Shown one piece after another: positions 19,302 to 38,242 of a stretch of 43,641 bases of DNA. Where the stretch lies: assembly GCA_005502775.1 (NCBI GenBank), contig SCNI01000032.1, forward strand, positions 1 through 43,641, in the 5' to 3' direction. Under the pieces are notes generated by a model that was not told the origin of the DNA, did no database searches, and was given only the letters and a program-made list of their open reading frames with translations. Each line of letters begins with the position of its first letter. The stretch's first letter is position 1. The position numbers were made by a program, and so were the translations under genes. The stretch comes from Microbacteriaceae bacterium 3FA27C10. GTDB taxonomy: Bacteria > Actinomycetota > Actinomycetes > Actinomycetales > Microbacteriaceae.

Positions 19302-19757
19302 TCAGGCGTGCAGCGGGCGTGTGAGCTCGTGCAGCGAGCGGGCGAGCGCGGCGAGTTCGGGGGTCTGCTCGGCCTCGTCGAGTGCGGCCTCCAGGGTGCG
19401 GTCGTGCACGGGCCGGGCGCGCTCGAGCAGGCGTTCGCCCGCCGTCGTCAGCTCGGTGTAGATGCCTCGCCGGTCGTCGGCGCACAGGATGCGCTGCAGC
19501 AGCGCCCGCTCCTCGAGCCGGTTGACGAGACGCGTGGTGGCGCTCGGCGAGAGCGCGGCCGCCCGGCTCAGCTGCTGCATCCGCATGTGCCAGCCGTCCT
19601 GGCGGCTCAGGGCGTCGAGCACCGTGTACTCCACCACCGACAGCCCGGCCTCGTCTTCGAGCGCCTGCCCGAGGGCGGCCTCGATCGCGGCGTGCAGGGC
19701 GGCCAGGGTGCGCCAGCCGTGTGCTCTGACCTCGACGGCGTCGTCACCGATGCCCAT
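19302..19757 (-). CDS. MarR family transcriptional regulator
   Basis: This 151-residue protein has a winged helix spanning [49 protein letters not shown] (about 38-87), with the wing at [16 protein letters not shown]. It is divergent from the MFS transporter gene at 19894. MarR proteins typically repress such an efflux gene and themselves until a ligand binds. Repeated motifs in the intergenic region could be its operators. It starts at the ATG with GGAGATT upstream. Confidence 0.92.
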
Positions 19758-19789
19758 GGGAATCTCCTCTGCTCAGCAGGCGACAGATA

Positions 19790-19841
19790 ATTGCTTGCGC
19801 ACTTATCCAGCGTGTGCAATCATTTTACCCAGCGCGTGCAA
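19790..19841. promoter_or_regulatory. Candidate MarR operators between marR-like gene and MFS gene
   Basis: TATCCAGCGTGTGCAA (19804-19819) and TACCCAGCGCGTGCAA (19826-19841) are near-identical direct repeats 22 bp apart, two helical turns. ATTGC (19790-19794) and GCAAT (19816-19820) add a dyad. The AT-richer stretch here probably contains both divergent promoters. Confidence 0.5.
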
Positions 19842-19893
19842 CAACAAGCGTACGCGTGTATTCATCCTCTCTCAACCCTCAGGAGACGACCAC

Positions 19894-21117
19894 ATGCCCA
19901 TCGGGCTCATCGCACTGGCTCTCGGAGGCTTCGGCATCGGACTCACGGAGTTCGTCATCGCCGGCCTCCTCCCCGAGGTGGCCGCCGACTTCGGAGTCGA
20001 CGCCGCCGCCGCCGGGTGGCTGATCACCGGCTACGCCCTGAGCGTGGCGGTCGGCGCCCTCGTCATCACCCTCGCCGTCACGAGGCTGCCCCGCAAGCAG
20101 GTGCTGATGGGGCTGCTCGTGTTCTTCATCGCGGGCAACCTCATCTCGGCCCTGGCCCCCACCTACTCCCTGATGCTCACCGGCCGCATCGTGGCCGCGC
20201 TCTGCCACGGCGCGTTCTTCGGCATCGGCGCCGTGGTGGCGGCCGGGCTCGTCGCGCCCGAGAAGCGCGCCAGCGCCATCGCGGTGATGTTCACCGGGCT
20301 CACGCTCGCCAATGTGCTCGGGGTGCCGTTCGGCACCTTCGTCGGTCAGAGCTTCGGCTGGCGCGCGACCTTCTGGGCCATCACGGTGATCGGCGTCGTC
20401 GCGCTCGCCGGGATCGCGTGGCTGGTGCCCGCCACCCCGCGCGCCGGCGCCGCCGACGAGACCGGGCAAGCCGCCTCGGCGGGCGCCCGGGGCGTGCGGG
20501 CCGAGCTCGCCGCCTTCCGCTCCACCCAGGTGTGGCTCTCCATCACTGTCACCGTGCTGGGCTTCGGCGGCATGTTCGGCGCCTTCACCTACATCGCCTA
20601 CACCCTCACCGAGGTCAGCGGCTTCGACGCCGGAGTGGTGCCCTGGCTGCTCGTGGTGTTCGGCGTGGGCCTGTTCGCGGGGAACCTGCTCGGGGGCAAG
20701 GCCGCGGAGCGATGGCTCGACCCCACGCTGATCGTGCTGCTCGCCGCCCTCGCCGTGGTGCTCGCGGCCTTCGCGCTGCTCGCCGCGATTCCCGTCGCGG
20801 CGGTGGTGGCCCTCGTGCTGATGGGCGCCTTCGGCTTCGGCACCGTGCCCGGACTTCAGTCGCGCATCCTCGAACACGCCCCCACCGCTCCCACGCTCGC
20901 CTCCAGCGCCAACATCGCCGCGTTCAACGTGGGCAACGCACTCGGGGCGTGGATCGGCGGCCTGGCCATCGCGGCCGGTCTCGGCTACACCTCCCCGCTC
21001 TGGGCCGGTGCGGGGCTCACCCTGCTCGCCCTGGTGGTGATGATCGCCGCGAGCGGCATCGACCGCCGGGCAAGGGCCCACCGGCAGGCCAGGCCCGCTG
21101 CGGCCGCCTGGGTCTAG
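19894..21117 (+). CDS. MFS transporter, DHA1 family (drug or metabolite efflux)
   Basis: This 407-residue protein has 12 predicted membrane helices. The opening LALGGFGIGLTEFVIAGLLPEVAADFGVD is the signature of the AraJ/YdhP/NepI-like DHA1 subfamily. The loop 2-3 motif is degenerate (TRLPRKQVL), and ALCHGAFFGIG is present in helix 4. It would export small molecules with the proton gradient. AGGAG precedes the ATG. It is divergent from a MarR regulator, which likely controls it, and overlaps the convergent chrA gene by 4 bases. Confidence 0.92.
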   Translation: MPIGLIALALGGFGIGLTEFVIAGLLPEVAADFGVDAAAAGWLITGYALSVAVGALVITLAVTRLPRKQVLMGLLVFFIAGNLISALAPTYSLMLTGRIVAALCHGAFFGIGAVVAAGLVAPEKRASAIAVMFTGLTLANVLGVPFGTFVGQSFGWRATFWAITVIGVVALAGIAWLVPATPRAGAADETGQAASAGARGVRAELAAFRSTQVWLSITVTVLGFGGMFGAFTYIAYTLTEVSGFDAGVVPWLLVVFGVGLFAGNLLGGKAAERWLDPTLIVLLAALAVVLAAFALLAAIPVAAVVALVLMGAFGFGTVPGLQSRILEHAPTAPTLASSANIAAFNVGNALGAWIGGLAIAAGLGYTSPLWAGAGLTLLALVVMIAASGIDRRARAHRQARPAAAAWV

Positions 21118-28082: not shown

Positions 28083-28118
28083 CCCGGTGCTGCCACAGGG
28101 TGGCGCAGCAGCACCGGG
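28083..28118. terminator. Hairpin between the VIT gene and lanA
   Basis: CCCGGTGCTGC (28083-28093) and GCAGCACCGGG (28108-28118) form a perfect 11-bp stem with a 14-base loop. It is placed to end both the plus-strand VIT transcript and the minus-strand lanthipeptide transcript. It has no U-tract. Confidence 0.6.
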
Positions 28119-28133
28119 GTCAGTCGACCGTGC

Positions 28134-28256
28134 TCAGCAGAGCACCTGGGAGGTCGTGCTGATGCAGACCGTCAGGCTGAACGTGCTCGAGAGCTCGTGG
28201 CGGTGCTGGCTGTCGGACTTCTCGTCGAGGTTCTGGAGGGCGAGGAGGTAGCGCAT
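28134..28256 (-). CDS. lanA: Class III lanthipeptide precursor, labyrinthopeptin/SapB-like
   Basis: This 40-residue ORF starts at ATG 28256, 7 bases after the lanKC stop; its ribosome-binding site GGAGGT (28266-28271) overlaps that stop. The leader begins MRYLLALQNLDEKSDS, with the hydrophobic LLxLQ box that LanKC enzymes recognise. The C-terminal core is STFSLTVCISTTSQVLC (residues 24-40). It holds two S-x2-S-x3-C motifs (Ser24/Ser27/Cys31 and Ser33/Ser36/Cys40), the pattern converted to labionin or lanthionine/dehydroalanine rings. The spacing matches labyrinthopeptin A2 position for position, but Ile replaces the first extra Cys and the second is absent, so no disulfide is expected. Whether the product is a morphogen, antiviral-like or antibiotic peptide cannot be told. 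Confidence 0.9.
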   Translation of the reverse strand: MRYLLALQNLDEKSDSQHRHELSSTFSLTVCISTTSQVLC

Positions 28257-28263
28257 GGTGGAT

Positions 28264-30969
28264 TCACCTCCCCCGCGGGTCGCTCGTGTGCGGGTAGGCC
28301 CGGGCGGTCGCCACGGGAGTCAGGAGGGGCAGCAGGTGGTCCCAGCCGCTGCGCTCGTGGTCGAAGGCGTTCAGTTCGTAGGCCTGCAGGGCGGTCAGCA
28401 CGCCGGCGGAGCCGGTGGCGAGATCGCAGGAGAGCCGCAGCAGGCCCTGCCCCGGAAAGCCGATGCCCGTGTTGTGGCGGATGGCATGCAGCTGGAGCGC
28501 GTCCACGTGGGTCTGCAGGGCGGCATCCGACTCCGCGGTGGAGAGCCCGGCGCGGCTGAGGGCGATCAGGAGGTGGATGAGCCCGGCCCGCCCGGAGAAC
28601 AGCCCGGGCTCGATCACGAAGGGCGTGCTCGCGGCCGAACGGATGCCGGCGAGGGCGACCGAGTAGGGCTCCGGGTCGCGGGTGTGCGGCAGCAGCTCGG
28701 CGAGCACCAGGCCGATGCCGGCCGAGCCGGTGGCCAGGTACGGCATCATCCGCCAGCCCTCGTTGATCTGAAGAGAGCCGTCATCGGCCAGGGCGCAGTG
28801 TGCCAGATCGTAGCTGAGGGTGCGTTCGGCGAGCCGGAGGTGCCGGGGGTCGCCGGTGCGCCGGTAGAGCCGGAGGGCGAACAGCGCCGTGCCGGAGGCC
28901 CCGCGCATCAGGCCGCCTTGCCCGGTGCGCACCGTCGGAGCCGGGTTGTCGGCGGATGCCGGCGGTCGACGTGAGTGACGCTCGTCCAGCTCCTCCGCGA
29001 TGCGCAGGCACTGCGCCTCGAGGGCGTCGCTCGCCGCCGTGCCCCGATCGGCTTCGCTGAGCAGGAGCAGTCCGATTCCCGGAAGACCGCCGTAGAGATC
29101 CGCGCCGAGGCCGCCGAGGTCCTTGGCTCTCAGCTGGGCGAGGATCTCGTCCGCCTGGTCGTCGCGTCCGTGCTGCCGATGGAGCCAGACCACGCCGGCC
29201 AGACCGTCGTAGAGGCCGAGGCGAGGTGAGCGGGCGGCCACTTCGTCGGCGACGGTGTCGTCGAGCCAGGCGAGCGCCTGAGGATCGACGTCGAGACTGC
29301 TCGAGTGCAGGGCGTGCACGACTCCGGCGGCACCGTGCGCCAGCCCGAAGCCGTTCTCGGAGAATTGCTGCGGATCGCCCGGCCAGGCCCGGTCGGCGCG
29401 GGAGAAGTCGGCACTCGCGTCGAGCGACCGCCCGATCATCACCTGGAGCGCGAGGACGGCGTCCTCGCTGTCCGTGCGCCATCGCCGGATCGCCGCGTCG
29501 GCCTCCCGTGCCAGGAGGCTCCGTCCGGCAAGCCGATTGCCTTGCGGCAGGCGCAGGTCGACGCGTACGGCCTCGAGCCAGTCGTCGTCGAGTGCGTAGG
29601 TCTCCTGTGCGCTTCGGGTCAGCTCGTCGATCTTCAGCGGGTCGAGCTGCAGGATGCCGGTCAGGGGAACGAAGAGGAAGAGCTTGATACAGGCCAGCGC
29701 GCTCAGGTCGGCGCCGATCCCTGCGTGGGCCGCGGCGTCGGCGGCCGGCGGGGCGGTGAAGCCGGGCGCGCCGATCAGCACCGGCCGGTCGTCGTCGATC
29801 CGCGACGCCATCTCGAAGTCGAGCAGAACGACCCGATCGTCGGGCGTCACGATCACGTTGCCCGGATGCAGGTCGCCGTGGGTGAAGCCGGCGGCGTGGA
29901 TGCGCGCGATCGCCTCGTCGAGCCGCGCCGCGATCCCGAGGGCCCACTGGCGGTACTCGAGCGAGGCCGCGGGGGGCGCATCCGCCCGGATGGCAGGACT
30001 GCGCATCACCACCGCGGTGTTGAGGTTCCACCCGTCGACCCGCTCCAGCGCGAGGAAGCGGTGCCCCTCCACCGTGGCACTGCCGTGGACGGCCACCACC
30101 GTCGGATGCGCGAGCGCACGGAGGTGCCGCTCCTCGTCGATCAGGCGCGTGATCGAATCCCGCCCGTCGGGAGTGAGGCCGGCGTGCGGGCGCGACTCCT
30201 TCAGCACGCAGGCCTCGCCGGCCGGTCCGGTGGCCTCGTAGACGCCGCCGGCGTTCGAGTAGTGCAGCACGCGGGTGATGACATACGGGAAGTCCGCAGG
30301 CGGTGCGTCGTCGCCGAGCGCGTCGAGCTGCTGCTGCACCGAGGCGGGGAGCGTGACCCACCCGGGCGGGGTGAAGGCGGCCGTGCGGCGATCCTCCACG
30401 AGCTGTCCAGCCGGATCCATGAGGGCGGGCACGAGGGCGCCGTCGTCGCTCGTCGTCCACGCCTGCGCGAAAGCTCCGTAGCGCACGTGCAGCGGGCCGG
30501 CGTTCCAGCGCAGGTCGGAGAGGATGTACGGCCCCGGCCGGCCGCCGACGAGCGTTTCGAGGGCCGTCAGGGCGGCGTCGAGCTCGGCCTCGTCGCGCGG
30601 GTAGATCGTGATGAACTTGCCCGAGCCGGCGCGATCCGCATCCTTGCTGTTGCGATTCAGGAGTTCTTCGCGGTGCGGAACGTACTTGAAGGACAGGCCG
30701 GTGTCGTGGCAGTGGCGCGAGACGTCGGCGAGCAGTGCGGCCGCCTCGTCGAGCGTGGTCGACACGTGGATCTTCCAGCCCTGCGCCGGTAGCACCAGTC
30801 CGCGTGGGGACCAGGCGCTCCAGCTCTCGTCGCTGCGGCTGTGCCAGGTCGACCAGTCGCGGTCGGCGGCGGGAGCGAAGGCACCGGCGCGGCGGCCGGG
30901 TGTCCGTGCGAGAGGAACGTCGTAGAAGGTCGGATTCGCTCGGGCGAAGCGCAGGTAGGCGGTGTCCAC
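28264..30969 (-). CDS. lanKC: Class III lanthionine synthetase LanKC
   Basis: This 901-residue enzyme starts at GTG 30969, with GAAAGG six bases upstream. An N-terminal lyase-like domain (about 1-200, FYDVP near 15-19) eliminates phosphate. A Ser/Thr kinase domain (about 228-450) has the likely ATP Lys257, the catalytic loop HGDLHPGN (364-371) and DFE (384-386). A C-terminal LanC-like cyclase domain (about 530-901) has Gly-rich repeats (FGLAHGAAGV, YDGLAGV, GLMRGASGTAL, LFSGRAGLI, TGSAGVLTAL). It lacks the Cys-His-Gly zinc site of class I, II and IV cyclases, which marks class III. It phosphorylates and dehydrates Ser/Thr of the precursor encoded just downstream, then cyclises onto Cys. Confidence 0.95.
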   Translation of the reverse strand: MDTAYLRFARANPTFYDVPLARTPGRRAGAFAPAADRDWSTWHSRSDESWSAWSPRGLVLPAQGWKIHVSTTLDEAAALLADVSRHCHDTGLSFKYVPHREELLNRNSKDADRAGSGKFITIYPRDEAELDAALTALETLVGGRPGPYILSDLRWNAGPLHVRYGAFAQAWTTSDDGALVPALMDPAGQLVEDRRTAAFTPPGWVTLPASVQQQLDALGDDAPPADFPYVITRVLHYSNAGGVYEATGPAGEACVLKESRPHAGLTPDGRDSITRLIDEERHLRALAHPTVVAVHGSATVEGHRFLALERVDGWNLNTAVVMRSPAIRADAPPAASLEYRQWALGIAARLDEAIARIHAAGFTHGDLHPGNVIVTPDDRVVLLDFEMASRIDDDRPVLIGAPGFTAPPAADAAAHAGIGADLSALACIKLFLFVPLTGILQLDPLKIDELTRSAQETYALDDDWLEAVRVDLRLPQGNRLAGRSLLAREADAAIRRWRTDSEDAVLALQVMIGRSLDASADFSRADRAWPGDPQQFSENGFGLAHGAAGVVHALHSSSLDVDPQALAWLDDTVADEVAARSPRLGLYDGLAGVVWLHRQHGRDDQADEILAQLRAKDLGGLGADLYGGLPGIGLLLLSEADRGTAASDALEAQCLRIAEELDERHSRRPPASADNPAPTVRTGQGGLMRGASGTALFALRLYRRTGDPRHLRLAERTLSYDLAHCALADDGSLQINEGWRMMPYLATGSAGIGLVLAELLPHTRDPEPYSVALAGIRSAASTPFVIEPGLFSGRAGLIHLLIALSRAGLSTAESDAALQTHVDALQLHAIRHNTGIGFPGQGLLRLSCDLATGSAGVLTALQAYELNAFDHERSGWDHLLPLLTPVATARAYPHTSDPRGR

Positions 30970-31097
30970 CGGTGGCCTTTCGGGTGAGTGCGGGGGCTCC
31001 ACCCGACCCATTCCCCGATCCGGTGCGTCCTCGCGGTCTCCATTCTGAGAACACGGGCAGGGCCCTCGCGCCTGCCGAAAGTGCCTATTCCGCGAGT

Positions 31098-31129
31098 GCC
31101 GTTCGGCGCAGGGCCAAGCCGTTCGGCGC
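31098..31129. promoter_or_regulatory. 12-bp direct repeat in the lanKC promoter region
   Basis: GCCGTTCGGCGC occurs at 31098-31109 and exactly again at 31118-31129, two helical turns apart, in the 186-bp gap between the NarL-type regulator gene and lanKC. Each copy has internal dyad character. It is a candidate binding site for the regulator, as the RamR-type regulators of SapB operons bind repeated sites upstream of ramC. Confidence 0.45.
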
Positions 31130-31155
31130 CGCGCTCGCCGGGGGCCGCATTCGTG

Positions 31156-31803
31156 TCAGGAGGCTATTCCGTTGCGAAAGGCCCAGATCACCAGCTGGAC
31201 ACGGCTCTGGGCGCCGAGCTTGCTCATCACCCTCGAGAGATGCGCCTTGACGGTTCCGGGTTCGAGGTGAAGCTGGTCGGCGATCTGCGCGTTGGTGTGG
31301 CCCTGGCTGAGGGCCCGCACGATGTCGAGTTCGCGCGCGGTCAGGGTGGTGGCGGCGGCATCGCTCGGCACGAGCGGCCGCCGGCGCCGGGAGAACTCCG
31401 CGATCACCCGGCGGGTGACGGCCGGGGAGACCAGTCCCTCACCGCGAGCGGCCGCGCGCACCGCGTCGGCGAAATCGTCGGGTTCGGTGTTCTTGAGCAG
31501 GAATCCGACCGCTCCGGCTTCCAGCGCTCCGAAGACGTACTCGTCGAGATCGAAGGTGGTGATGACGATCACGGGAACAGGATCGTCGGCGGCCGAGATC
31601 GTGCGCGTGGCGGCGATGCCGTCGCCTTCCGGCATGCGGATGTCCATGAGCACGACGTCGGGCTCGAGTGCTCGCGCGGCGGCGACCGCGGCGGGTCCGG
31701 AGCTCGCCTCGCCGATCACCTCGATGTCGGGGAAGTCGTCGAGCAGCACGGTGAGTCCCCGACGGATCACGATCTGGTCGTCGACGACGAGAACCCGGAT
31801 CAT
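31156..31803 (-). CDS. NarL/LuxR-type response regulator of the lanthipeptide locus
   Basis: This 215-residue protein has a receiver domain with acidic pair VVDDQ (8-9), phospho-acceptor Asp54 (VLMDIRMPEGDG), Thr in VITTFD and Lys in FLLKNTEP. The C-terminal LuxR-type HTH starts at LTARELDIVRALSQGHTNAQ and ends VKAHLSRVMSKLGAQSRVQL. It overlaps the upstream kinase gene by 4 bases. RamR/AmfR, which activate SapB-type lanthipeptide operons in Streptomyces, belong to this family but lack an adjacent kinase. Here control of lanKC-lanA by a complete two-component pair is the likely arrangement. Confidence 0.92.
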   Translation of the reverse strand: MIRVLVVDDQIVIRRGLTVLLDDFPDIEVIGEASSGPAAVAAARALEPDVVLMDIRMPEGDGIAATRTISAADDPVPVIVITTFDLDEYVFGALEAGAVGFLLKNTEPDDFADAVRAAARGEGLVSPAVTRRVIAEFSRRRRPLVPSDAAATTLTARELDIVRALSQGHTNAQIADQLHLEPGTVKAHLSRVMSKLGAQSRVQLVIWAFRNGIAS

Positions 31804-33062
31804 CCGACGGCTCGCCGCTCGAGCGGGATGGTGGCCCGGGTGCGCCAGCCGCCGTCGACGGTGGCGCCGGCGTCGAGGCTGCCGCCCAGCATGGCGGCCC
31901 GCTCGCGCATGCCGATCACCCCGAATCCCGTGTTCGCGGTGCGAGGCGGCGGTGGCGTCGAGCCCGGGCCGCCTTCCGGGGTCTGGGATCGCGGCGGCTT
32001 GTTCGCGATGTCGATCACGACGTCGCGCGGCCCTCGCTTCACCCGGATGGCCACCTGGGCGCCCGCGGCGTGCTTGCGGGCGTTCGTGAGGGACTCCTGG
32101 ATGATGCGGAAACAGGCCAGCGAGGTCGCGGGTGAGAGATCGTCGATGTCGCCGGAGACCCGGAGGTCGATCGCCGGATGCACCGCGCGCACCGAATCGA
32201 TCAGATCGGGCAGCCGGCTCAGGGTGGGTTCGGCGACGGTGCCCGCCTCGTCCTCCCGCCGCAGCACCCCCACCACCTCGCGCAGGTTCTGCAGGGTCAG
32301 TTCCCCTTCGCTGCTGATCGACTCGAGCAGCTCGGCGGTCGTCGCCGGGTCGGAGCTCTGCACCCGGATGGCGGCCTTCGCCTGCAGCAGGATGCCGGTG
32401 AGGTGGTGCGCGGCGACGTCGTGCAGCTCCCGGGCCATGCGGTTGCGCTCCTCCGAGACGGCGGCGGCGAGCTGGCTGTCCCGGGCCTGGCGGAGCGCCT
32501 CGGTGGTCTCACCGGCCAGTTCGGCCCGGCGGCGCTGAGAACCGTAGAGCAGGCCGGCGAGCACCGGCGTGATGTAGGTGGGGAGCACCCGGATGAGCGT
32601 GGCGAGCACCGCGACCGGCGACAGCATCCCGATGCTGAGCGAGGCCAGCGCGAGGTGGATGCTCAGATCGAGCAGCACCGAGGCGGCCAGGATGCTCGCC
32701 CAGACCCGCACTCCGGTGAGAGCCGTCAGGTTGAAGACCGCGAACAGGAAGGTGGGCGTGACCGTGAGATTGCGGTCGATGCTGATCGTGATCGCCAGGA
32801 GGAAGCAGAGGTACACCAGGCCGAAGGTCAGCACCGGGCGCCGCGAACGCCAGAGCACCGGTACCGCCTGCAGCGCGAACACGGCGACGGAGCCCCAGAC
32901 GCTCAGGGCTGTGACCGGCGGGCCTCCGTTGGGAACGAAGAAGCTCGTGGCGGCGGCGATGGTGATGAGGAAGTAGGCGATCGAGGCCCCGCCGAGGAGG
33001 AGGGCCCAGGCCCAGTCGGGGAGGGGGAGCCGCTGAACGCGCTTCACGGCATCCGTGGCCAC
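31800..33062 (-). CDS. NarX/DesK-type sensor histidine kinase
   Basis: This 420-residue protein starts at GTG 33062, preceded by GGAGGAACC. There are about six membrane helices in the first 175 residues with almost no extracellular loops, then a HisKA_3 dimerisation domain with His214 in MARELHDVAAHHLTGILLQ and a HATPase with GFGVIGMRERAAMLGG. The membrane-embedded sensor suggests detection of a lipid-phase or membrane stress signal. It is the partner of the downstream NarL-type regulator. A long Pro-rich insert (SQTPEGGPGSTPPPP) sits in the ATPase domain. Confidence 0.92.
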   Translation of the reverse strand: MATDAVKRVQRLPLPDWAWALLLGGASIAYFLITIAAATSFFVPNGGPPVTALSVWGSVAVFALQAVPVLWRSRRPVLTFGLVYLCFLLAITISIDRNLTVTPTFLFAVFNLTALTGVRVWASILAASVLLDLSIHLALASLSIGMLSPVAVLATLIRVLPTYITPVLAGLLYGSQRRRAELAGETTEALRQARDSQLAAAVSEERNRMARELHDVAAHHLTGILLQAKAAIRVQSSDPATTAELLESISSEGELTLQNLREVVGVLRREDEAGTVAEPTLSRLPDLIDSVRAVHPAIDLRVSGDIDDLSPATSLACFRIIQESLTNARKHAAGAQVAIRVKRGPRDVVIDIANKPPRSQTPEGGPGSTPPPPRTANTGFGVIGMRERAAMLGGSLDAGATVDGGWRTRATIPLERRAVG

Positions 33063-33274
33063 GGTTCCTCCTGCAGTCGAATGCGTCAGCCGCGAGTGCG
33101 GGGGCTGGAGGCTCCGCGGCCCGGTGGAGCGGGTCACCCGGGCACCCACCCCCGATCGTGCGCCTCTCAGAGTAGCCATTCCCCGCCTCCTGTGTGTGAA
33201 CGAACGATCAAGACTCCCGGATGAGCGGACTCGCCGGTAGGGCCGTCGGTGCCGATCGTTCACCTCCTGTTTGT

Positions 33275-33312
33275 CCCGAACGGCCTAGCCCGAATGGCAT
33301 AGCCTGTTCGGG
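33275..33312. promoter_or_regulatory. Repeated CCCGAA elements upstream of the TetR gene
   Basis: CCCGAACGG (33275-33283) and CCCGAATGG (33289-33297) are direct repeats 14 bp apart. The second CCCGAA forms a dyad with TTCGGG (33307-33312) across a 12-bp spacer, ending 13 bp before the TetR start. It is a plausible autoregulatory operator. Confidence 0.4.
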
Positions 33313-33325
33313 TGGAGCAGAGGCG

Positions 33326-33910
33326 ATGATCCGGCGCGAACAGGCTGAGCGCAGCCGCGATCTGCTGCTCGACGCGGCGGCCGAGGAGTTCTGGCTGCAC
33401 GGCCTCGAAGGGGCGCGCATCCAGGACGTGCTGGACCGCACGCAGATGACCAAGGGCGGTCTGTACCACCACTTCATCAACAAGCTGCAGATGGCCGAGG
33501 CTCTCGCCGCCCAGGAGGCCGAACGCTGGCCGGAGCTGATCGCCGAGATCGAGGAGTCGGATGCGCGGGGTCTCGCCGCCCTCGAGCGTTTCGCCGTGGT
33601 CGTGGCCGGCCGGCTCGACGACGAGGTGCGGGCGCGCGCCGTGCTGCGGATCGCCGAGGAGCTCGACCCGCCCGCGACCGGCGCCGTCGCGCTCTGGGAC
33701 GACTTCGTGATCCGGGCCCTGCAGCAGGCGATCGCCGATGGCGAGGTGTCGGATGCGATCGCGATCCGCGAGGTGGCGCAGACCGTGGTCGAGTGCGTCT
33801 ACGGCGTGAGCGCGAGCCCGGCCGCGATCCGGGGCGGACTCTCCGCCGTCGAGCGCCTGACCCGGCTCTGGGCGGTGCTCGGCCCGGGCTTGAGGGCGAC
33901 GGCGCGCTGA
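33326..33910 (+). CDS. TetR family transcriptional regulator
   Basis: This 194-residue protein opens MIRREQAERSRDLLLDAAAEEF, with the HTH IQDVLDRTQMTKGGLYHHFINK (about 32-53). The motif TKGGLYHHF and the general layout resemble the gamma-butyrolactone-receptor-like branch of TetR, but that assignment is weak. It is divergent from the lanthipeptide kinase gene with a 263-bp shared region, so it could regulate that locus as well as itself. The start at 33326 is chosen by alignment of the HTH; the open frame extends further upstream without family similarity. Confidence 0.88.
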   Translation: MIRREQAERSRDLLLDAAAEEFWLHGLEGARIQDVLDRTQMTKGGLYHHFINKLQMAEALAAQEAERWPELIAEIEESDARGLAALERFAVVVAGRLDDEVRARAVLRIAEELDPPATGAVALWDDFVIRALQQAIADGEVSDAIAIREVAQTVVECVYGVSASPAAIRGGLSAVERLTRLWAVLGPGLRATAR

Positions 33911-34245: not shown

Positions 34246-35295
34246 ATGTCAGACTCGCCTACCGGCAGAACCGCCGTCCTCGTCGACGAACGGTCCCCCT
34301 CCGACGGGGACCAGGGCCGCCGCGTGGACGTGCCGCGCACGCTCACCACCGTTCGGGGCGCGTCGGACACGGTGTTCCGGGTCACCGCCCACGGGGGCGG
34401 GATCGTGGTGCTCGCGATCATGACCCTGGTGGGCCTGTTCCTCGCGATCCGCGGAGCCGAGGCGATCGGGGCGGCGGGCCCGTCGTTCCTCACCGAGCAG
34501 GCGTGGGAGCCCAACTCCGGCCGTTTCGGGATCGCGGCCGTGCTGTTCGGCACGGTCACGATCGCGCTGGTGGCGATCACGGTGGCCCTGCCGCTCGCGG
34601 TCGGAACCGCGACCTACATCTCGGAGTACGCGCCCATCGGCTTGAAGCGACTGCTGATCGGCATCGTCGACCTGATGGCCGCCATCCCCTCGGTGGTCTA
34701 CGGCCTCTGGGGGATGTTCTGGCTCGAAGGATCGATCCTGCCCGTGGCGCAGTGGATCTCGACCTACTTCGGCTGGATCCCGATCTTCGCCGTGCCGAAC
34801 TTCGACCCGAACGATCCGCTGGCCACTCCGACGGTGTTCACGGCGAGCGCGTTCCTCGCCGGCCTCGTCGTGGCGATGATGGTGGCGCCGATCGCCTCGA
34901 GCATCATGCGCGAGGTGTTCGCCCAGGCGCCGGTGGGGGAGCGTGAGGGCGCCCTGGCGCTCGGCTCGACCAAGTGGGGCATGATCCGTTCGGTCGTGTA
35001 CCCGTTCGGCCTCGGCGGGATGATCGGCGGAACCATGCTCGGGCTGGGCCGGGCGCTGGGGGAGACCATCGCCGTCTACCTGGTGATCTCGCCGGTGTTC
35101 GTCATCCAGCCGCACCTCCTCGGCACCGGCACGAACTCCATCTCCTCGCTCATCGCCCTGCGCTACGGCGAAGCGAGCCCCTTCGAGCTCTCGGCCCTGA
35201 TGGCCGCCGGGCTCGTGCTCTTCCTCATGACCATGCTCGTGAACTTCGGAGCGGGGATCATCATCTCCCGCTCCCGTTCCGGCGCCTCGAGCTGA
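34246..35295 (+). CDS. pstC: Phosphate ABC transporter permease PstC
   Basis: This 349-residue protein has a cytoplasmic N-tail of about 45 residues and six membrane helices. The ABC permease EAA loop is EGALALGSTKWGMIRSVVYPFGLGG (about 234-258), followed by GLGRALGETIAVYLV, and the helix 3 region is DLMAAIPSVVYGLWG. With PstA it forms the channel of the high-affinity phosphate importer. GAGGGGGAAT lies upstream of the ATG. A PHO-box-like repeat lies 220 bp upstream. Twelve bases separate it from pstA. Confidence 0.93.
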   Translation: MSDSPTGRTAVLVDERSPSDGDQGRRVDVPRTLTTVRGASDTVFRVTAHGGGIVVLAIMTLVGLFLAIRGAEAIGAAGPSFLTEQAWEPNSGRFGIAAVLFGTVTIALVAITVALPLAVGTATYISEYAPIGLKRLLIGIVDLMAAIPSVVYGLWGMFWLEGSILPVAQWISTYFGWIPIFAVPNFDPNDPLATPTVFTASAFLAGLVVAMMVAPIASSIMREVFAQAPVGEREGALALGSTKWGMIRSVVYPFGLGGMIGGTMLGLGRALGETIAVYLVISPVFVIQPHLLGTGTNSISSLIALRYGEASPFELSALMAAGLVLFLMTMLVNFGAGIIISRSRSGASS

Positions 35296-35306
35296 GACGA
35301 CAGACG

Positions 35307-36590
35307 ATGACGACCACCCAGACCCGCCCGCCGGAGCGCGCTCCGAGCGCGCACCGGCGCACGACCCTCCCGCGTCGCGAGCGCGGCGGCGCCCACAACA
35401 CGCGCCCGGAGGCGCGGCGCAACCTCGCCCGCATCCAGCGCACCGACGTGCTCCGCATCCTCGGCGCGGCCGCCGCCGGCATCGCGACCACCACGTGGCT
35501 GTTCACCCAGGTGGCGCCGTTCCAGGGCGCGCTGCCGTTCGTGCTGATCGCCTACCTGCTGTTCCTCGTGTTCTTCGTGGTGCTGATCAGCTTCGACGAC
35601 AACCTCGTGACCATCGCCGACCGGGTGGTGGCGGTCGTCATCCACTCGCTGGCGGTCGTGCTGCTGCTCGCGCTCGCCGTGGTGGTCGTCTTCACGCTCT
35701 CCCGCGGCTCGGAGGCGTTCCTCAATCCGAACTTCTGGGTGCAGGACCTCTCGCTGGCCGGCCCCCTCGACCCCCTGAACGTGGGCGGGATGCTGCACGC
35801 GGCGGTCGGAACGCTCATCATGATCTCGTTCGCGCTGGCCATCGCCATCCCGCTCGGGCTGCTCTGCGCGGTGTTCCTGGCCGAGTTCCCGAGCCCGTTC
35901 AGCCGCATCGTGCGCACGGTGGTGGAGGCGATGACAGCACTGCCCTCGATCGTCTGCGGGCTCTTCATCTACGCCACCTACGTGCTGATGTTCGGGCTCG
36001 ACAAATCGGGCTTCGCGGCGTCGCTGGCCATCACCATCATGATCCTGCCCATCATCATCCGCAGCGCCGATGTGGTGCTGCGGCTCGTGCCCGGCACCCT
36101 CAAGGAGGCCTCGCTGGCGCTCGGCACCAGTCAGTGGCGCACCATCTGGCACGTCGTGCTGCCGACGAGCAAGTCGGGGCTGATGACCGCGATCATCCTG
36201 GGCACGGCGCGCGGCATCGGGGAGACCTCGCCGGTGCTGCTGACGGCGGGGTACACCACCTACTTCAACTTCAACCCCTTCTCCGGGCCGATGGTCTCGT
36301 TGCCGTTCGCCACCTTCACGCTCGTGAAGTCTCCGGAGGCCACGCAGATCGCGCGGGGCTTCGGTGCGGCCGCGGTGCTCATGGTGCTCGTGTTCGTGCT
36401 CTTCCTGGTGGCGCGCATCATCGGCGGTCGCGGCGCGGGGCTGCTGTCGCCGCGCGGGCTCGCCCGGGCGACGGCGGCGTCGAAACGGGATGCGGCGCGC
36501 ATCGCCGGGCGCAGCGCGCCGGGCGCGGGCCTCCCGGTCGGGCGCGTCGAACCGCCGGCTGCCGCTGCGGATCATGGAGGGGCGCGATGA
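35307..36590 (+). CDS. pstA: Phosphate ABC transporter permease PstA, N-terminally extended
   Basis: This 427-residue protein is longer than typical PstA (about 290-300). The first 40 residues are basic and disordered. Two extra hydrophobic segments (ILGAAAAGIATTTWLF and ALPFVLIAYLLFLVFFVVLI) precede the core six-helix permease, as in other actinobacterial PstA proteins. The core has EAMTALPSIVCGLF and the EAA loop EASLALGTSQWRTIWHVVLP. It ends in a 45-residue Ala/Arg tail. The stop overlaps the next gene by 4 bases (ATGA). Confidence 0.92.
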   Translation: MTTTQTRPPERAPSAHRRTTLPRRERGGAHNTRPEARRNLARIQRTDVLRILGAAAAGIATTTWLFTQVAPFQGALPFVLIAYLLFLVFFVVLISFDDNLVTIADRVVAVVIHSLAVVLLLALAVVVVFTLSRGSEAFLNPNFWVQDLSLAGPLDPLNVGGMLHAAVGTLIMISFALAIAIPLGLLCAVFLAEFPSPFSRIVRTVVEAMTALPSIVCGLFIYATYVLMFGLDKSGFAASLAITIMILPIIIRSADVVLRLVPGTLKEASLALGTSQWRTIWHVVLPTSKSGLMTAIILGTARGIGETSPVLLTAGYTTYFNFNPFSGPMVSLPFATFTLVKSPEATQIARGFGAAAVLMVLVFVLFLVARIIGGRGAGLLSPRGLARATAASKRDAARIAGRSAPGAGLPVGRVEPPAAAADHGGAR

Positions 36591-38242
36591 GTGCGCGATG
36601 GACCAGAACGCGCGCGCTGCTGGCGCTGCTCGGGGTCGCGTTGATGATGACCGGCGGTGGAACGGTCGTCACCGCGTCGCGGGCCGATGCCGCGGGAACC
36701 CTCCACGTGCAGATCACCGGCAGCGGGTCGACCTGGTCGGCCAATGCGCTTCAGCAGTGGATCCGCAACGTGTGGTCCAACTACCAATGGAAGATCACCT
36801 ACAGCGAGTCGGGCTCGACCCAGGGGCGCAACGACTTCAAGAACGGAACGGCGGATTTCGGCGTCTCGGAGATCCCCTACGGAATCGCGAACAGCAACGA
36901 GGCCGATGCGCCATCGAACCGCGCCTTCGTCTACATGCCCATCGTGGCGGGCGGAACCGCGTTCATGTACAACCTCCAGATCGGAGGAAAGAGGGTCACG
37001 AACCTGCGTCTGTCCGGCGACACCGTGGGCAAGATCTTCACGGGAGTCATCACCCGCTGGGACGACCCGCAGGTGATCGCCGACAATCCGTCGCTCGCCC
37101 TGCCGGCGATTCCGATCGTTCCCGTCGTGCGATCGGACGGCTCGGGCGCGACCGCGCAATTCAGCATCTGGATGAGGCAGGAGCATCCAGATCTCTGGGA
37201 CGCGTACTGCCCCAAGGTCGGCCGGGTGTTCGTCAACGATCACTGCGGAGTGACGTCGAACTACCCGGTCGTGCCGGGAACGGGATTCGTCTCGCGTGCG
37301 GGGTCGAATGGCGTGGCCGGCTATGTGGCACAGCCCCAGGCAGTCGGAGCCATCACCTTCGTCGAATACTCGTACGCGACGAACTCGGGTTTCCCCGTGG
37401 CCAAGCTGCTCAACAAGTCGGGTTACTACACGGAGCCGACAGCGAGCAACGTGGCGGTTGCGCTTCTCAGCGCACACATCAATGAAGACACGACGTCGCA
37501 GAACTACCTCACTCAGGACCTCAGCGATGTCTACACCTCTGGCGACCCGCGTACCTACCCGCTGTCGTCGTACTCGTACATCATTCTCCCCACGGCACTC
37601 GAGAACAATTTCACCGAGAACAAGGGTTTGACCCTTGCCGATTTCGGGGCGTACTTCTTGTGCGAAGGCCAGCAGCAGGCGGAGAGCTTGGGATACTCGC
37701 CTCTGCCCATCAACCTGGTGCAGGCCGGGCAGGATCAGATCCGCAAGATCCCCGGTGGAGACCCGGCCATCAAGGGCATCTCCGACTGCAACAACCCCAC
37801 GTTCACCCCGGACGGTTCGAACAAGCTCGCGAACGAGGCGCCGCCCCCCAGCGAATGCGACAAGCAGGGCGCCACGCAGTGCTCGGTCGGTACCGGTGGC
37901 GCCAAAGACACCCCCACCGAGACGAGCGGTGCGCCGGCAGGCTCGAATCCCCAATCCGGAGGCACTCAGAACGCGGCGGGGGGTCCTGCCGCAGCGGAGT
38001 CCGGAGCCGGCGGAACATCTCGTGCGGGTGACGGGGCTGTGCTCAGCCAGAACGCCGCTCCGGTGGTCGTGAACGCCGTGCCGCAATCCCTTCCGACCAC
38101 GGCGATCCCGGTGCTGCCTGCCCTCGCCATCGTGCTGGCCGGCCTCGCCGTCATCATGGTCGCCGCACTGCCTCCGATCCTCGGCCGCCGTCGACGGCGG
38201 CGAGTGCTGCCCGACCCCGTGCGAGGGCCACCGATCCGATGA
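36587..38242 (+). CDS. PstS-like phosphate-binding protein with C-terminal membrane anchor
   Basis: This is a 551-residue protein. After a signal peptide (about 1-35, ending ADAA) comes a type II periplasmic-binding domain (about 38-395) with ITGSGSTWSANALQQW, YSESGSTQGRNDF, DFGVSEIPY, LRLSGDTVGKIFTG and VVRSDGSGATAQF. These match phosphate-contact segments of PstS, except that the usual Asp of DFGASDAP is Glu. A Gly/Ala/Pro/Ser-rich linker follows, then a helix (TAIPVLPALAIVLAGLAVIMVAALPPIL) and a run of Arg, a stop-transfer anchor. Ordinary PstS is a lipoprotein of about 370 residues, so this is an alternative anchored form. It occupies the place where pstB would be expected. Confidence 0.85.
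   Translation: MSARWTRTRALLALLGVALMMTGGGTVVTASRADAAGTLHVQITGSGSTWSANALQQWIRNVWSNYQWKITYSESGSTQGRNDFKNGTADFGVSEIPYGIANSNEADAPSNRAFVYMPIVAGGTAFMYNLQIGGKRVTNLRLSGDTVGKIFTGVITRWDDPQVIADNPSLALPAIPIVPVVRSDGSGATAQFSIWMRQEHPDLWDAYCPKVGRVFVNDHCGVTSNYPVVPGTGFVSRAGSNGVAGYVAQPQAVGAITFVEYSYATNSGFPVAKLLNKSGYYTEPTASNVAVALLSAHINEDTTSQNYLTQDLSDVYTSGDPRTYPLSSYSYIILPTALENNFTENKGLTLADFGAYFLCEGQQQAESLGYSPLPINLVQAGQDQIRKIPGGDPAIKGISDCNNPTFTPDGSNKLANEAPPPSECDKQGATQCSVGTGGAKDTPTETSGAPAGSNPQSGGTQNAAGGPAAAESGAGGTSRAGDGAVLSQNAAPVVVNAVPQSLPTTAIPVLPALAIVLAGLAVIMVAALPPILGRRRRRRVLPDPVRGPPIR

Follow-up and report, generated by a model that had tools for sequence, protein, structure and literature searches.

Evidence for a SapB/AmfS-type class III lanthipeptide precursor gene beside lanKC in Microbacteriaceae bacterium 3FA27C10

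Does the short open reading frame beside the lanthipeptide synthetase gene lanKC of Microbacteriaceae bacterium 3FA27C10 encode a lanthipeptide precursor and, if so, of which kind? The window analyzed in this study was the whole 43,641 nucleotides of contig SCNI01000032.1, and the open reading frame, at positions 28134-28256, is here termed lanA. The initial annotation had described it as a class III precursor gene directly after lanKC, with an LLxLQ leader box and a two-ring, possibly SapB-like product, and these points held. The gene lies on the minus strand, which had been left unstated, 7 nt after lanKC; its 40-residue product, MRYLLALQNLDEKSDSQHRHELSSTFSLTVCISTTSQVLC, carries the box LLALQ at residues 4-8 and two SxxSxxxC motifs within residues 24-40, and the plus-strand frame over the same bases is unrelated to this peptide. 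lanA is a genuine gene and an ordinary further member of the SapB/AmfS family, and we are highly confident that it encodes the precursor of a class III lanthipeptide of the SapB/AmfS type, a confidence that covers its identity and not its role. The family membership of precursor and synthetase, the gene order and the conserved leader box and ring positions were observed directly.

Three curated precursor models recognized LanA above their cut-offs, namely NCBIfam NF033212 (SapB/AmfS; 27.3 bits, cut-off 25), NCBIfam NF038154 (lanthi_III_a; 27.0 bits, cut-off 22) and Pfam PF19402 (RamS; 27.7 bits, cut-off 24.3); NCBI's annotation library now contains models that recognize it. The adjoining class III synthetase, encoded by lanKC at 28264..31011 on the minus strand, has lyase, kinase and cyclase domains (RamC_N, Pkinase and LANC_like) and scored 877 bits against NF038151 (cut-off 575), and its best matches in the PDB include solved LanKC structures. 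Moreover, its kinase domain contains HGDLHPGN and DFE; according to passages of PMC10604976, ThurKC, a class III enzyme, has Glu in its DF(G/E) motif. A loose two-ring pattern was found in six window open reading frames of 25-80 amino acids, of which lanA alone also had the leader box. In a six-frame search of the genome with NF038154, lanA was the sole match over the cut-off (24.8 bits; the others reached 12.1 and 10.6), and the same search of 14 control genomes gave sub-threshold matches in eight and none over the cut-off. The expectation that no better precursor lies elsewhere in the genome was thus borne out at this cut-off, in a search that was incompletely sensitive: the precursor of a related genome, G716, was unmatched, and the cluster of another, G045, reached 13.1 bits, below the cut-off, although precursors are recognizable by eye in both, so that a divergent second precursor could escape detection.

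The leader presumably comprises residues 1-23. The ring residues Ser24, Ser27, Cys31, Ser33, Ser36 and Cys40 fall at core positions 1, 4, 8, 10, 13 and 17, as had been predicted, and form the register SxxSxxxC-x-SxxSxxxC without additional cysteines; core position 9 is Ile, and the peptide stops at core position 17 with Cys as its C-terminal residue. The ribosome-binding region, recognized by its sequence (28257..28274, minus strand; GGGGGAGGTGAATCCACC), lies upstream of the ATG and overlaps the 3' end of lanKC, and the ribosome site reads GGGGGAGG. For the core STFSLTVCISTTSQVLC minus four waters the calculated [M+H]+ is 1717.83, and with one to four extra leader residues it is 1804.86, 1917.95, 2046.99 and 2184.05.

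Wider regions were retrieved around 13 LanKC places from the genus, family and class searches. Two genomes, G386 and G716, have a homologous precursor directly 3' of LanKC (48% identity to LanA in G386, 38% in G716) and repeat the gene order histidine kinase, response regulator, LanKC, LanA. The 13 columns invariant among the three precursors (M1, Y3, L4, L5, L7, Q8, L10, S24, S27, C31, S33, S36 and C40) map to the leader box and to the six positions that form the rings; G716 is one residue shorter in its second ring. Furthermore, a single LanKC in G045 is followed by a run of five distinct class III precursors (L004 4016-4734, reverse-complement coordinates), with one inter-ring residue in four of them and two in the fifth; three of the five also occur in L019 5912-6320, and one synthetase apparently serves several substrates in G045. 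At another locus, in G336 (L010 4081-4318 and 586-819), two short open reading frames after LanKC end in SSVSYNCG and SSASWNCGG and a carrier-protein-like open reading frame lies upstream, an arrangement that resembles lipolanthine clusters.

The initial annotation had set LanA in the register of labyrinthopeptin A2 minus the disulfide cysteines, which raises the question of whether LanA is a labyrinthopeptin relative that lost them. Both peptides are class III with six ring residues at the same core positions, which favors that origin; unlike labyrinthopeptin A2, LanA has no Cys at core position 9 or 18, hence no disulfide, and no tryptophan. Inter-ring spacing was compared across 30 class-sample LanKC loci, which were the best-scoring of 79 places rather than a random draw, with 20 from one genus. 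A strict two-ring pattern found 29 precursors at 26 of these loci, with two inter-ring residues in 13 (SapB-like), one in nine, five in six and three in one; the remaining four loci carry precursors whose second ring is shorter. Among 16 family loci, the window included, strict precursors were found at seven, 11 in total, with spacings of one residue in six (LanA, the G386 precursor and four from G045), two in one, five in one and six in three. Of the nine loci without a strict match, at least four do carry precursors, with shorter rings. LanA shares 15 of 37 aligned residues with a class-sample precursor of the same register (L033). The durhapeptin core, TGASTASLLSCVSAASVLLCL, has the same one-residue register and no extra Cys in the part of PMC13380574 that presents it. 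Since this register without extra cysteines is so common, the lack of disulfide cysteines in LanA is normal and does not mark a labyrinthopeptin variant. Extra cysteines are likewise absent from the G386 and G716 precursors and from the four of G045 that have one inter-ring residue, in a comparison that was not phylogenetic and excluded labyrinthopeptin genes, and LanA exceeds the cut-off of the SapB/AmfS model. A labyrinthopeptin origin was thus rejected as the leading reading and is very improbable; the earlier comparison is formally right on positions and misleading as to kind, and a closer kinship of LanA with labyrinthopeptin A2 than with the AmfS type appears unsupported.

A lipolanthine-like peptide, in which the C-terminal Cys would be oxidatively decarboxylated to give an avionin, was also considered. 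In its favor, the final motif of the core is SxxSxxxC, closed by a terminal Cys, and M. arborescens, presumably a Microbacterium, is the origin of one lipolanthine. That class III peptide, microvionin, is ascribed to M. arborescens in passages of PMC10604976. No LanD-type decarboxylase was found in the cluster, and the sole Flavoprotein (PF02441) match in the genome is a 514-aa open frame on another contig; at least one PF02441 match occurs in each of the 14 control genomes, as expected for what is probably housekeeping CoaBC. Lipolanthine formation needs a LanD-type flavoprotein decarboxylase. Nor did acyl-carrier or fatty-acid families match among the window open reading frames scanned, which were a selection and not the full set. 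With no candidate decarboxylase, the lipolanthine reading was rejected and is most improbable.

Several observations weigh against the SapB/AmfS-type reading or would suit a silent or decaying cluster, in which the precursor is intact and nothing is made. LanKC is sporadic: one of the 16 genus genomes has it at E <= 1e-50, and at E <= 1e-80 it occurs in 13 of 398 genomes sampled from the family, 12 of which exceed the cut-off. Across the class sample, 68 of 394 genomes have it at E <= 1e-150, and 66 of these exceed the cut-off. An exporter or leader peptidase was recognized in none of the open reading frames scanned. The closest cluster, in G051 (70.5%, 79% and 60.6% identity in histidine kinase, response regulator and LanKC), has no precursor beside LanKC recognizable by tblastn or motif scan (L020 10123-10800), and NF038154 finds nothing across that genome, so that the link between LanKC and precursor is not universal. 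In Xylanimicrobium pachnodae, a named relative confirmed by scanning contigs with LanKC, tblastn gave a match at the expected place (L017 10726-10836; 43.6% over 39 aligned positions), whose frame continues past the first ring without a second ring cysteine, and the NF038154 search of that genome gave no match. The anticipated conservation of the gene beside lanKC in relatives therefore stood for G386 and G716 and failed for G051 and for the 15 of 16 genus genomes that lack LanKC. Against decay, the window retains open frames for LanKC, response regulator, histidine kinase and LanA, and the ring residues are conserved among LanA, G386 and G716; moreover, class III clusters of Actinobacteria usually lack a protease, as stated in a portion of PMC7268733. 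A silent or decaying cluster is thus unlikely, and a SapB/AmfS-type precursor remains our reading of lanA.

The genes probably form an operon in the order histidine kinase, response regulator, LanKC, LanA. The NarL/LuxR-type response regulator directly upstream of lanKC (31156..31803, minus strand; PF00072 and PF00196) is probably the regulator of this operon. The HisKA_3 histidine kinase (31800..33263, minus strand; PF07730 and PF02518) has about five hydrophobic spans by hydropathy, and its true start probably lies inside this open reading frame because the 5' end overlaps a TetR-type open reading frame at 33221-33910. That TetR-type regulator is divergent from the histidine kinase and best matched the ScbR autoregulator-binding family, at 121 bits, below the cut-off of 150. 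Two 17-nt direct repeats (31098..31134, no strand assigned; 88% alike, spacing 20) in the interval between the response regulator gene and lanKC are a possible binding site of the regulator. Between lanA and the convergent VIT1 gene lies a strong hairpin (28083..28118, no strand assigned), terminator-like without a T run; the RNA fold of an 81-nt stretch there gave -47.6 kcal/mol (z -4.1).

A histidine kinase and a response regulator also precede LanKC in G386, G716, G051 and X. pachnodae, and in all of these except G051 the kinase aligns by its C-terminal half alone, so that the sensor parts differ. Within 1.5 kb of LanKC at the 30 class loci, flanks so short that they are weak evidence of absence, neither gene was seen except for one weak kinase match at L051 (24%); the family loci L011, L015 and L016 gave similarly weak ones (25%). 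A ram/amf-type ABC exporter adjoining lanKC and lanA was not found in the selection of window open reading frames, in which the only ABC families were Pst-type permeases, on the plus strand beyond the TetR gene, and an MFS gene at 19462-21117 is not adjacent to the cluster. Ten neighbor open reading frames from four related clusters contained a single MFS transporter, located in the G386 region, and lacked ABC exporters. The window also holds PstC/PstA-like permeases and a PBP-like domain in a long open reading frame of 915 aa (34246-38242), and the genome has three PstC-like matches.

Beside the cluster stands a block of VIT1, ferric reductase, ApbE, response regulator and histidine kinase, which is syntenic in two of four congeners (G010 and G004); in the other two (G015 and G011), VIT1 alone of the block was found. 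LanKC is absent from all four, which would fit an accessory cluster located beside VIT1.

In the proposed pathway, the LLALQ leader helix would dock on LanKC, the kinase domain would phosphorylate Ser24, Ser27, Ser33 and Ser36, elimination of phosphate by the lyase domain would give four dehydroalanines, and the cyclase domain would couple Cys31 and Cys40 to these to close two rings. In PMC13380574, ring type is described as hard to predict from the synthetase sequence alone, two labionins are supported for durhapeptin, with structural work on a variant, and SapB and AmfS are reported to contain lanthionines; the rings of LanA may therefore be of lanthionine or labionin type. The leader would then be trimmed by a peptidase encoded elsewhere, and an unlinked transporter would export the small hydrophobic two-ring peptide. 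By analogy with SapB and AmfS, the probable site of action of the mature peptide is the surface of the cell or colony.

Micrococcales are mostly without aerial hyphae. A Micrococcales lineage of AmfS-register peptides, with its own histidine kinase and response regulator control, export that needs no dedicated transporter and a function distinct from the formation of aerial hyphae, for example as a self-sensed surface or envelope signal, is conceivable and is proposed here as a doubtful possibility. If the peptide is made, LanA and its relatives would allow the question of SapB/AmfS-like function to be asked in bacteria without aerial hyphae; otherwise, the finding is routine. In either case, lanA adds a well-supported short gene and a probable operon to the SapB/AmfS family, which has more than 4,000 annotated precursors according to a passage of PMC13380574, where a durhapeptin variant is also described as triggering aerial hyphae in some Streptomyces.

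In the literature searched, which covered few subscription journals, no paper dealt, judged by its title or the opening of its abstract, with a class III peptide of the SapB/AmfS family from Microbacteriaceae; excerpts from PMC12187853 tie a lanthipeptide to isolates KC06 and KC216, neither of which is among its Microbacteriaceae isolates. The class III clusters of Brevibacterium resemble the one in the window in having LanKC and precursors with two Ser/Ser(Thr)/Cys motifs and in occurring sporadically outside Streptomyces, so that the non-streptomycete occurrence is not new in kind; some of them lie on a mobile island that Corynebacterium casei has in common with them (PMC5719810, in part). 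SapB/RamS shares with LanA two SxxSxxxC motifs and a RamS model score over the cut-off; unlike LanA, the 13 SapB-like class precursors have two inter-ring residues, and ten of them end in Asn. In the ram and amf systems, ramAB and amfAB are ABC genes. Passages of PMC13380574 place transporter or ABC genes in the dur, ram and amf clusters; unlike the AmfS type, the present cluster has a histidine kinase and a response regulator upstream and no exporter among the open reading frames scanned, and LanA has neither a Gly-rich stretch before the core nor a residue after the last Cys. With the AmfS type (NF033212), including durhapeptin of Streptomyces durhamensis, LanA shares the LLxLQ box, the tandem SxxSxxxC motifs separated by a single residue, the lack of extra Cys and a gene beside LanKC.
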